A DNA stretch of 64,000 nucleotides from Rhizobium sp. ICMP 5592. Its GTDB lineage: Bacteria; Pseudomonadota; Alphaproteobacteria; Rhizobiales; Rhizobiaceae. How positions within the stretch are numbered: position 1 is the stretch's first letter; each line of letters opens with the position of its first letter. Shown one piece after another: positions 49,837 through 52,075 of the stretch. The DNA lies in assembly GCF_009498525.1 (NCBI RefSeq), contig NZ_QSNT01000003.1:327977-391976 (forward strand), in the 5' to 3' direction. The notes beneath the pieces were generated by a model. The model had not been told where the DNA came from. It saw only the letters and a program-made list of their open reading frames with translations, and did not search any database. The position numbers were made by a program, and so were the translations under genes.

Positions 49837-51126
49837 ATGGCTCGGGCGCTTGGTCTTGACTTCGGCACAACGAATACGGTTCTGGCTCTGGCCGACGGTC
49901 CGGCGACGCAATCGGTCGCCTTCACCAGCGCCGCTGGCACGGCGGACAGCATGCGTACGGCTCTGTCCTTCATGAAGGATCCGGGCTTGGGTGCCGCGGC
50001 CCTGAAGGTCGAGGCGGGGCATGCCGCCATCCGGCAGTTCATCGACAATCCCGGCGACTGCCGCTTTCTGCAGTCGATCAAGACCTTTGCCGCCAGCGCG
50101 CTTTTTCAGGGCACGCTGATCTATGCCAAGCGCCATACGTTCGAGGATCTGATGGAGATCTTCGTACGTCGTCTGCGCGCCTATGCCGGCGATGGCTGGC
50201 CGTCGGAAGTCGGTCGCATCGTTACGGGCCGACCGGTGCATTTTGCCGGCGCCAATCCGGATGCGTCGCTGGCGACCGAGCGCTACAATACGGCCCTGTC
50301 GCGCTTCGGCTTTCCGGAAATCCATTATGTCTACGAACCGGTGGCAGCCGCCTTTTACTTTGCCCAGCATCTGAAGGCGGATGCGACCGTGCTGGTCGCC
50401 GACTTCGGCGGCGGCACGACGGACTATTCGCTGATCCGCTTCGAGAGCCATGCCGGCCGGCTGACGGCCACCCCGATCGGCCATTCCGGCGTCGGCATCG
50501 CCGGCGACCATTTCGACTTCCGGATGATCGACAACATCGTCTCGCCGGAAATCGGCAAGGGCAGCTACTTCAAGAGCTTCGACAAGCTGCTGGAAGTGCC
50601 AACCTCCTACTATGCCAATTTCGGCCGCTGGAACCAGCTTTCGATCTTCAAGACTTCGCGCGAATATGCCGACCTGAAGAAGCTGGTGCGCAGCAGCATG
50701 GAGCCGGACAAGCTGGAGACTTTCATCGATCTCGTCGAGCATGACGAAGGCTATCCGCTCTATCAGGCGGTGTCGGCGACGAAGATGGCGCTGTCGGCTG
50801 AAGAAGAAGCCGAGTTCAATTTCCCGCCACTTGGCAAAGCCGGCCGCAAGACAGTACGCCGCGCCGATTTCGAGCGATGGATCAGCGACGATCTCTCTCG
50901 TATCGAGGGCGCCCTGGATGATGTTCTGACGACCACCAACACGTCGCCCGACACCATCGACAAGGTGTTCCTCACCGGCGGCACCTCCTTCGTGCCGGCG
51001 GTGCGCCGCATCTTCACCAAGCGCTTCGGTCAGGAGCGGATCGAGACCGGTGGCGAATTGCTGTCGATCGCCCATGGTCTCGCCCTGATCGGCGAGCGCG
51101 ACGACATCAGCCAGTGGACGGCGTGA
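49837..51126 (+). CDS. Hsp70-family protein, YegD-like
   Basis: The 429-residue protein is an actin-like ATPase of the Hsp70 family, resembling E. coli YegD. Visible motifs are the phosphate 1 loop LGLDFGTTNTVLALAD, phosphate 2 VLVADFGGGTTDYSLIRF near residue 187 and adenosine motif VFLTGGTSFVPAVRRIF near 385. The usual C-terminal substrate-binding domain is missing, as in YegD. It may be a free ATPase or a partner-specific chaperone. It stands alone before the UDG-like gene. Confidence 0.92.
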   Translation: MARALGLDFGTTNTVLALADGPATQSVAFTSAAGTADSMRTALSFMKDPGLGAAALKVEAGHAAIRQFIDNPGDCRFLQSIKTFAASALFQGTLIYAKRHTFEDLMEIFVRRLRAYAGDGWPSEVGRIVTGRPVHFAGANPDASLATERYNTALSRFGFPEIHYVYEPVAAAFYFAQHLKADATVLVADFGGGTTDYSLIRFESHAGRLTATPIGHSGVGIAGDHFDFRMIDNIVSPEIGKGSYFKSFDKLLEVPTSYYANFGRWNQLSIFKTSREYADLKKLVRSSMEPDKLETFIDLVEHDEGYPLYQAVSATKMALSAEEEAEFNFPPLGKAGRKTVRRADFERWISDDLSRIEGALDDVLTTTNTSPDTIDKVFLTGGTSFVPAVRRIFTKRFGQERIETGGELLSIAHGLALIGERDDISQWTA

Positions 51127-51181: not shown

Positions 51182-52075
51182 ATGATCTCCGCCAACGACC
51201 TTTCGCCAGCCGAACTCGCCGCCCTTCTGCATTTTCATGCGGATGCCGGCGTGGAATGGCTGCTCGAAGAAGAGGCCGTCGACCGCTTTGCCGAATTCGA
51301 GGCGATGAAGGCCGCTCGGCAGGGTGCACGAGCGGCGCAGCCGCGTGTCGAGGTGACACAGCAACCCGCAGCACGGCCGGCACAACAACCGGAGCGCCGT
51401 CAGGCCGCACCAAAGGCGGCCGCCCCTGTAGCGCCGCCGCGCAGCGCACCTGCCATTCCCGACGAACAAGCCGTCGAGCAGGCCCGCTTCGCGGCCGAAA
51501 GCGCGCGGTCTCTCAGCGAACTCAAGACGGCGCTCGAGGCTTTCAATAGCTGCAATCTGAAGAATAGCGCCCGCTCGACCATCTTCGCCAGTGGCACCCC
51601 CGAGGGCCGCATCATGGTAATCGGCCCGATGCCGAGCGCCGATGACGACCGCGAGGGTGCGCCCTTTGCCGGGCGGACCGGGCTGTTGCTCGACAAGATG
51701 CTGGCCGCCATCGGCCTCAAGCGCGACAACATCCTGCTCACCAATGTTATTCCCTGGCGGCCGCCGGGCAATCGCGCACCGTCGGCACCGGAAATCGAGA
51801 TCTGCCGTCCCTTCATCGAGCGGCAGATCGCTCTTGCCGAACCGCAAGCCCTGCTGCTGCTCGGCAATTTTACGGCACGCCACTTCTTTGGAAGCAACGA
51901 AACGATCCACGGCCTGCGCGGGCAGTGGCGGGACGTGACGATATCCGGCCGGGCGATACCGGCAATCGCCAGCCTCCACCCCCAGGAATTGCTCACCGCC
52001 CCAATCAACAAGCGGTTGGCCTGGAACGACCTGTTAGCCTTCAGAACGCGCATCGACACCGAAGCCAAAGGCTAA
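51182..52075 (+). CDS. Uracil-DNA glycosylase family 4/5-like protein, altered Fe-S site
   Basis: The 297-residue protein has a unique N-terminal 110 residues with a proline/alanine/glutamine-rich linker, and then a UDG superfamily domain (about 115-290): EGRIMVIGPMPSADDDREGAPFAGRTGLLL, LLTNVIPWRPPGNRAPSAPEI and HPQELL. In family 4 enzymes four cysteines bind a 4Fe-4S cluster; here only Cys124 and Cys208 match, with Phe121 and Trp192 at the others. The catalytic GEGPG is GPMPS. Base excision by the standard mechanism is therefore uncertain. It lies 55 bases after the Hsp70 gene. Confidence 0.85.
   Translation: MISANDLSPAELAALLHFHADAGVEWLLEEEAVDRFAEFEAMKAARQGARAAQPRVEVTQQPAARPAQQPERRQAAPKAAAPVAPPRSAPAIPDEQAVEQARFAAESARSLSELKTALEAFNSCNLKNSARSTIFASGTPEGRIMVIGPMPSADDDREGAPFAGRTGLLLDKMLAAIGLKRDNILLTNVIPWRPPGNRAPSAPEIEICRPFIERQIALAEPQALLLLGNFTARHFFGSNETIHGLRGQWRDVTISGRAIPAIASLHPQELLTAPINKRLAWNDLLAFRTRIDTEAKG

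Follow-up and report, generated by a model that had tools for sequence, protein, structure and literature searches.

The window, the whole stretch of 64,000 nucleotides of Rhizobium sp. ICMP 5592 DNA that was analysed, carries a gene for a UDG-like protein (P0001) preceded by a gene for an Hsp70/YegD-like protein. The features considered here, in window coordinates, are as follows.

49837..51126, + strand: Hsp70/YegD-like gene, ending 55 bp upstream of the UDG-like gene (PF00012, 66.7 bits)
51182..52075, + strand: whole gene for the 297-aa family-4-type UDG-like protein, P0001 (open reading frame, TIGR00758, PF03167, fold)
51182..51301, + strand: conserved N-terminal tail, residues 1-40, region of LLHFHADAGVEWLLEEEAVDRF (class-wide conservation, low dN/dS)
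51314..51481, + strand: Pro/Ala/Gln-rich flexible linker, residues 45-100 (low pLDDT, fast evolution)
51515..52051, + strand: UDG-fold domain, residues 112-290 (profile, PDB alignment, structure searches)
51542..51544, + strand: Phe121, at the first Fe-S cysteine position (1ui0 alignment)
51551..51553, + strand: Cys124, second cysteine position, retained (1ui0 alignment)
51623..51637, + strand: motif A, residues 148-152, GPMPS for GE(G/A)PG, with Pro149 replacing the Glu equivalent to Tth E41 (1ui0 alignment, relatives)
51665..51667, + strand: Phe162, retained uracil-pocket position, Tth F54 (1ui0 alignment; pocket list in an excerpt of PMC5387724)
51743..51745, + strand: Asn188, uracil-recognition Asn, Tth N80, retained (alignments)
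51755..51757, + strand: Trp192, at the third Fe-S cysteine position (1ui0 alignment)
51770..51772, + strand: Asn197, water-coordinating Asn, Tth N89, retained (1ui0 alignment)
51803..51805, + strand: Cys208, fourth cysteine position, retained (1ui0 alignment)
51977..51982, + strand: His266-Pro267, motif B with the catalytic His, Tth H155, retained (1ui0 alignment)
52010..52036, + strand: KRLAWNDLL, residues 277-285 (in decayed copies, defined below, K, W and D are 95-99% conserved)

P0001 scores 156 bits against TIGR00758 (UDG family 4), over the curated cut-off of 125.3, and 99.8 bits against PF03167. Among solved structures it is closest to the Thermus thermophilus family 4 UDG (Tth UDGa, 1ui0; E 3.2e-28). 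Because the TIGR00758 score lies over the cut-off and the substitutions described below recur in relatives, neither the family 4 likeness nor the substitutions can be put down to chance. A model predicted from 12 Rhizobium sequences (mean pLDDT 68.5, higher across much of the UDG domain, below 50 at residues 158-165 and 191-195) has the UDG alpha/beta fold and best matches family 4 structures, namely 4zby of Sulfolobus tokodaii (Z 14.2, rmsd 3.7 over 173 residues) and 1ui0 (Z 14.1), with 25-27% sequence identity. The original prediction had described about 110 N-terminal residues beyond the UDG domain, including a flexible linker, and the model agrees, with pLDDT below 50 at residues 50-61 and 63-86 and values of 34-36 for the block of residues 51-80. 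The tail that precedes the linker is conserved, its Gly23 being present in 96% of the 237 rows of the class alignment.

P0001 shares with family 4 the HP of motif B, the Asn of motif 3 and two of the four cysteines, but differs in having Phe and Trp at the other two cysteine positions, a motif A without Glu, and the added tail and linker. As judged from its sequence, P0001 is a family-4-derived variant, not to be filed as a family 4 UDG, and is the Rhizobium orthologue of a family-4-type UDG without the full set of cluster ligands that is present in most alphaproteobacteria. BdiUng of Bradyrhizobium, likewise a rhizobial UDG, reportedly combines a family-4-like fold with a motif A of GQDPA, unlike the GPMPS of P0001; no chain named BdiUng was among the PDB matches of P0001. 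The fold also resembles that of UdgX (6ail, Z about 12.5), but P0001 reaches 93.4 bits against TIGR03914, whose cut-off is 189.95, its sequence lacks the KRRIH segment (R-loop), and its motif A differs from the GEQPG of UdgX given in an excerpt of PMC10359453.

Matches occur in 243 of the 247 Rhizobiaceae genomes, including every one of the 229 good ones, and in 275 of 289 genomes of the class; a few of these matches are paralogues, as in G662. The closest named genome in the relatives scan is that of Rhizobium rhizogenes NBRC 13257, at 96% identity. We also observed a near full-length copy, with most of the tail, in a freshwater phage (MW462191.1, 12681-13487; 41.5% identity over query residues 11-291), a Rhizobium-type locus of 75% identity on a contig titled 'MAG: Pantoea sp.' (L115), a label that looks wrong, and a UDG profile match near the N-terminus of a DNA polymerase I-like protein (PDB 9qhs_A, residues 14-109; E 1.1e-4). 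For comparisons among orthologues, copies are termed intact where the motif A Glu and the catalytic His are both kept and decayed where either is lost; the paralogues or partial copies L311, L316, L318, L341, L346 and L347 are dropped from the counts.

Alignment with 1ui0 upholds the earlier proposal that Phe121 and Trp192 stand in for two of the four Fe-S cysteines, the third position reading KC in Thermus and PW here. These substitutions extend far beyond Rhizobium. The first position is Phe in 100 of 118 intact alphaproteobacterial orthologues and Tyr in six, Trp fills the third in 116 of the 118 intact members and in 86 of the 88 decayed ones, and both lost cysteines are present in all 25 phylum rows outside the alphaproteobacterial group. 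On a quick tree built without the motif columns, a single change suffices for each position. By these alignments, the loss of two ligand positions is an early event in the class, common to nearly all alphaproteobacterial orthologues aligned, which rules out a quirk of P0001 alone. The suggestion that P0001 is cluster-free thus stands as far as sequence goes, two of four ligands being absent, but this does not make it unusual within its class.

Loss of the ligands probably does not abolish function. In eight of 25 Ung-less genomes with an intact copy, that copy, with its incomplete ligand set, is the only UDG-superfamily gene detected in a PF03167 check, although three of these eight small genomes (assemblies G077, G083 and G308) are less than 90% complete. 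The distribution suggests that such orthologues, where their catalytic motifs are intact, are probably functional. Cys-to-Ser mutants of archaeal family 4 UDGs, whose activity is stated in an excerpt of PMC5295032 to fall by only about 40%, agree with this reading.

The active site tells of a second and more recent loss. As had been predicted, GPMPS at residues 148-152 takes the place of GEGPG, and of the pocket positions in Thermus, E41 is changed to Pro, G42 to Met and E47 to Asp. Proline has no backbone NH. In Tth UDG, the backbone NH of E41 bonds uracil O2, and activity drops substantially when E41 is replaced with any of Ala, Asp, Asn and Gln, E41Q having an 888-fold lower k2/Km (Xia et al., PMC5387724, in the parts of that paper drawn on here). 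Given that Pro149 removes the NH that bonds uracil O2 in the Thermus enzyme, P0001 would be a poor uracil glycosylase, and we consider it likely that the protein no longer excises uracil efficiently.

Loss of the motif A Glu is shared throughout one Rhizobiaceae clade (support 96/94), in which it is absent from all 61 rows and the motif itself is variable (GPMPS, GSAPS, GATPS, GGCPG, CGFPT and others). Ten rows of the clade have lost the catalytic His as well; they form two sub-lineages, one of L235/L237/L239 and the other of L256-L260 together with L263 and L264. Beyond the clade, L295 and L265 lack the His too. At the Asn188 position, Gln is found in some Rhizobium, and several related genera have residues other than Asn or Gln. 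On the tree of Rhizobiaceae rows, the His column takes four changes and that of the uracil-binding Asn takes ten; L262, L265 and L290 are long branches in this tree and the joining of L261-L265 is doubtful. The two layers of loss, as reconstructed from the alignments, differ in age: the cluster ligands went early, and the active site later, in several lineages.

Loss of the active site tends to accompany Ung. The source genome has three further PF03167 genes, encoding Ung (TIGR00628, 279.5 bits), a Mug-like protein and a CxxC-containing UDG-like protein; the last of these (L002, 1246-2004) has its CxxC near the N-terminus, an AGQAPG motif and no NCBIfam match. All 61 members of the Glu-less clade come from genomes with a family 1 Ung over cut-off, and the Glu is retained in 27 of 32 Ung-less Rhizobiaceae rows as well as in five Ung-bearing ones (tree and Ung table without the 30 phylum rows and the Rhizobium rows not scored for Ung). 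Elsewhere in the class Ung is rare, being over cut-off in 20 of 289 genomes, the source genome included. The remaining 19 comprise 11 genomes with decayed copies or remnants (eight genera, seven families), four with intact copies (three families) and four with no match. Outside Rhizobiaceae, 11 of the 15 Ung-bearing genomes that have a match carry a decayed copy, versus 14 of 75 Ung-less genomes (Fisher 7e-5, kinship ignored). The Ung-less sample combines the best scorers with middling genomes and with low scorers included on purpose, so that its rates are not those of a random sample; the borderline-Ung genomes G312 and G343 are omitted from this class-wide comparison.

A related pattern holds for genomes without Ung, in and outside the family: another PF03167 gene is present in all 19 with a decayed copy, versus none in the eight of 25 with an intact copy noted above (Fisher 0.0065; G086, which keeps Glu and His, is counted as intact). 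The exceptions to the association are the five Ung-bearing Rhizobiaceae and four other Ung-bearing genomes with intact copies, and the 19 Ung-less genomes with decayed ones. Fisher tests show a strong association, but the rows are related and the pattern is phylogenetically clumped, and independent-pairs tests of Ung against decay, with three usable pairs on supported branches, have no power; the class tree excludes L312-L315, L317, L348, L271 and every second Rhizobiaceae row. The remnants (L312-L315 and L317), which align poorly and are counted as decayed, are very degraded open frames of 232-273 aa in Ung-bearing genomes, hardly recognisable as UDG. In one genus, we noted two genomes: G150 combines a decayed alpha-type copy (L325) with a further, strong PF03167 gene, and G261 has a canonical CxxC/KCRPP copy (L341).

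The gene has nevertheless been held by selection. Median dN/dS in Rhizobium is lowest for residues 1-40 (0.058), slightly higher for the UDG domain (0.073) and highest for the linker (0.149), the fastest of the three regions (400 of 1641 close Rhizobium pairs sampled, 338-399 usable). Domain dN/dS is 0.075, 0.155 and 0.346 in the His-less lineages (two or three pairs each) and 0.042 and 0.117 in the Glu-keeping ones (one and six pairs). Positions conserved at 0.85 or more in the 118 intact rows that fall to 0.5 or less in the 88 decayed rows are 149, 150 and 152 of motif A, 188 (Tth N80), and 271 and 272 in the motif B loop; the drop at 149 follows partly from the definition of decay, whereas those at the other five do not. 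Conservation of His266 drops to 0.77 in decayed rows. Against these losses, 38 positions are conserved at 0.85 or more in both sets, among them K277, W281, D283, L16 and G23 (for the column statistics, one in six of the Rhizobium rows L005-L034 was used, and L001, L312-L315, L317, L348, L271 and L084-L163 were left out). By these measures the gene is under purifying selection across most of the protein outside the lost sites, and the dN/dS values together with the 38 conserved positions make neutral decay unlikely.

Since the same genome encodes Ung, P0001 should be dispensable for uracil removal, and its retention suggests another role, one for which the pocket would not be needed but the tail and much of the domain would. 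The idea that P0001 might have another task thus gains support for the Rhizobiaceae lineage from active-site decay under purifying selection, mostly alongside Ung, and we think it likely that P0001 is kept for a non-catalytic role.

A candidate for this role is offered by the clamp-loader subunit psi (HolD). E. coli psi, which we take to have a UDG-like fold, follows the same plan of a tail and then a domain, although E. coli HolD is about half the size of P0001, and its tail is of the form WxLxxLGIxxW (sequence confirmed in E. coli K-12 DNA); some family 4 UDGs have a similar tail. Excerpts of PMC3290774 and PMC3197488 state that psi binds DnaX domain III through its N-terminus and has possibly diverged beyond detection, and the former gives chi (HolC) as present in alpha-, beta- and gammaproteobacteria, with psi known only in the last. 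In a ranking by an HMM of 20 tails of non-alphaproteobacterial family 4 UDGs, 28 HolD tails stood above 8057 decoys with an AUC of 0.905, and HolDs took the first four of 8420 places. A match is favoured here, because the pattern used to excise those 20 tails was chosen after viewing them. With a psi-tail HMM, the UDG of L164 ranked first of 5305 ORFs (19.7 bits versus 6.9 for the next), and only this one of 296 UDG ORFs came within the top 100. PF03603 positions 1-23 matched residues 2-24 of the same protein at E 0.11, below the cut-off. The alphaproteobacterial tail is tied only weakly to psi, with an AUC of 0.525 against the non-alphaproteobacterial-tail HMM and of 0.69 for HolD in the reverse test.

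Comparison of HolD with family 4 profiles gave a score above all 100 of 100 column shuffles, yet a probability of only 5-10%, and in this weak profile alignment the non-alphaproteobacterial segment matching KRLAWNDLL falls opposite ARAALWQQ of HolD. The two families have complementary distributions in our sample, family 4 being over cut-off in none of eight HolD-bearing genomes versus 111 of 142 others; here the negative for G462 is read from its absence among the matches, the 142 are assumed to be HolD-less, and the HolD-bearing genomes belong to few families. The gene rimI adjoins the UDG gene in L165 and L185 (RimI TIGR01575, 127 and 120 bits), as it adjoins holD (HolD-RimI neighbours identified with E. 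coli RimI as query), an adjacency limited to two of 30 phylum loci. PF03603 had no match to P0001 at E of 1 or less, and none in the source genome by genome search. Psi structures were absent among the matches shown by the structure searches, which excludes nothing. In the titles and abstract openings retrieved from openly licensed PMC papers we found neither a cluster-free alphaproteobacterial family 4 UDG nor a relation between psi and UDG.

We regard homology of HolD and UDG as suggestive only, and an identity of P0001 as a psi-like clamp-loader adaptor, drawn from such sequence comparisons, as possible but doubtful. Somewhat less probable still is the wider proposal that the alpha- and betaproteobacterial family 4 UDG is the missing clamp-loader psi, a glycosylase that would also tether chi/SSB to DnaX, with gammaproteobacterial HolD a catalytically dead descendant and the Rhizobiaceae dismantling the glycosylase half independently.

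The account that we favour, as a plausible but tentative whole, joins these strands. The sequences show that two Fe-S ligand positions changed early in the class and that later, in the Ung-bearing Rhizobiaceae clade, the motif A Glu was lost, and in sub-lineages Asn and His too. The gene would have been retained for a non-catalytic, psi-like role that the protein already had. In this role the N-terminal tail, on its flexible linker, may dock on the DnaX collar; chi/SSB or single-stranded DNA may be bound by the UDG-fold domain. Vaccinia virus UDG (D4) is derived from family 1. It has a catalysis-independent role in the viral processivity factor, according to an excerpt of PMC1936997, and is a precedent only for a UDG with such a role in replication, being viral and having a different partner.

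Several other explanations were weighed against this account. Family 5 UDGs have no polar residue at the Glu place of motif A. By analogy, P0001 might tolerate the loss of this Glu and be a still-active, cluster-free glycosylase with a shifted substrate range, its chemistry done by His266 and Asn197, both of which it retains together with Phe162 and Asn188. Strong purifying selection would fit such an enzyme, as would the archaeal Cys-to-Ser mutants that keep most of their activity (PMC5295032, same excerpt). However, the His has been lost from orthologues that belong to this clade or to a different Ung-bearing lineage (L235, L237, L239, L256-L260, L263, L264 and L308), in most of which the Asn and parts of motif 3 are gone too, and the varied motif A of Glu-less copies is unlike a new specificity; we therefore judge continued activity unlikely.

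Slightly less probable again is a non-catalytic DNA-binding or lesion-sensing protein, recognising uracil, abasic sites or single-stranded DNA, that has no part in the clamp loader and whose tail binds some other partner, perhaps in connection with the Hsp70-like protein encoded upstream. The concentration of losses in the active-site motifs, with much of the rest retained, is as this explanation would have it, but the pocket residues differ among decayed copies, which makes base recognition unlikely as the selected function. The upstream gene scores 185 bits against NF008673, whose cut-off is 331, may share an operon with the UDG-like gene, and neighbours it in all 80 loci of the relatives scan (80 of 148 relatives retained). 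It is found in 38 of 47 Glu-less versus none of 13 Glu-keeping Rhizobiaceae loci, in favour of a link, but was not found in nine of the 47, in which the UDG-like gene is still present. In E. coli K-12, yegD adjoins alkA, another glycosylase gene.

Relaxed selection on a gene made redundant by the gain of Ung and now being lost might be read from the remnants or missing matches in other Ung-bearing genomes and from the one His-less lineage with a higher domain dN/dS (0.346 in three pairs), but is very improbable given the Rhizobium dN/dS of 0.07, the intact frames, the match in every good Rhizobiaceae genome and the conserved positions still conserved in decayed copies. Equally improbable is an ordinary family 4 enzyme holding its cluster through other ligands: Cys124 and Cys208 are conserved in most class members, but across the class the remaining two positions are mostly occupied by Phe/Tyr and Trp, and Cys124 or Cys208 is itself absent from some intact copies (L320 and L330).

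Family 4 UDGs without the full set of ligands are natural tests of the role of the Fe-S cluster, and the maintenance by selection of the gene for a core repair enzyme, in several lineages where the enzyme's active site has been dismantled, points to a non-catalytic role across the class. If the link to psi is true, it would locate psi in those chi-bearing bacteria in which none is detectable, filling a gap described in excerpts of PMC3290774 and PMC3197488, and uracil repair would be coupled to the replication fork.
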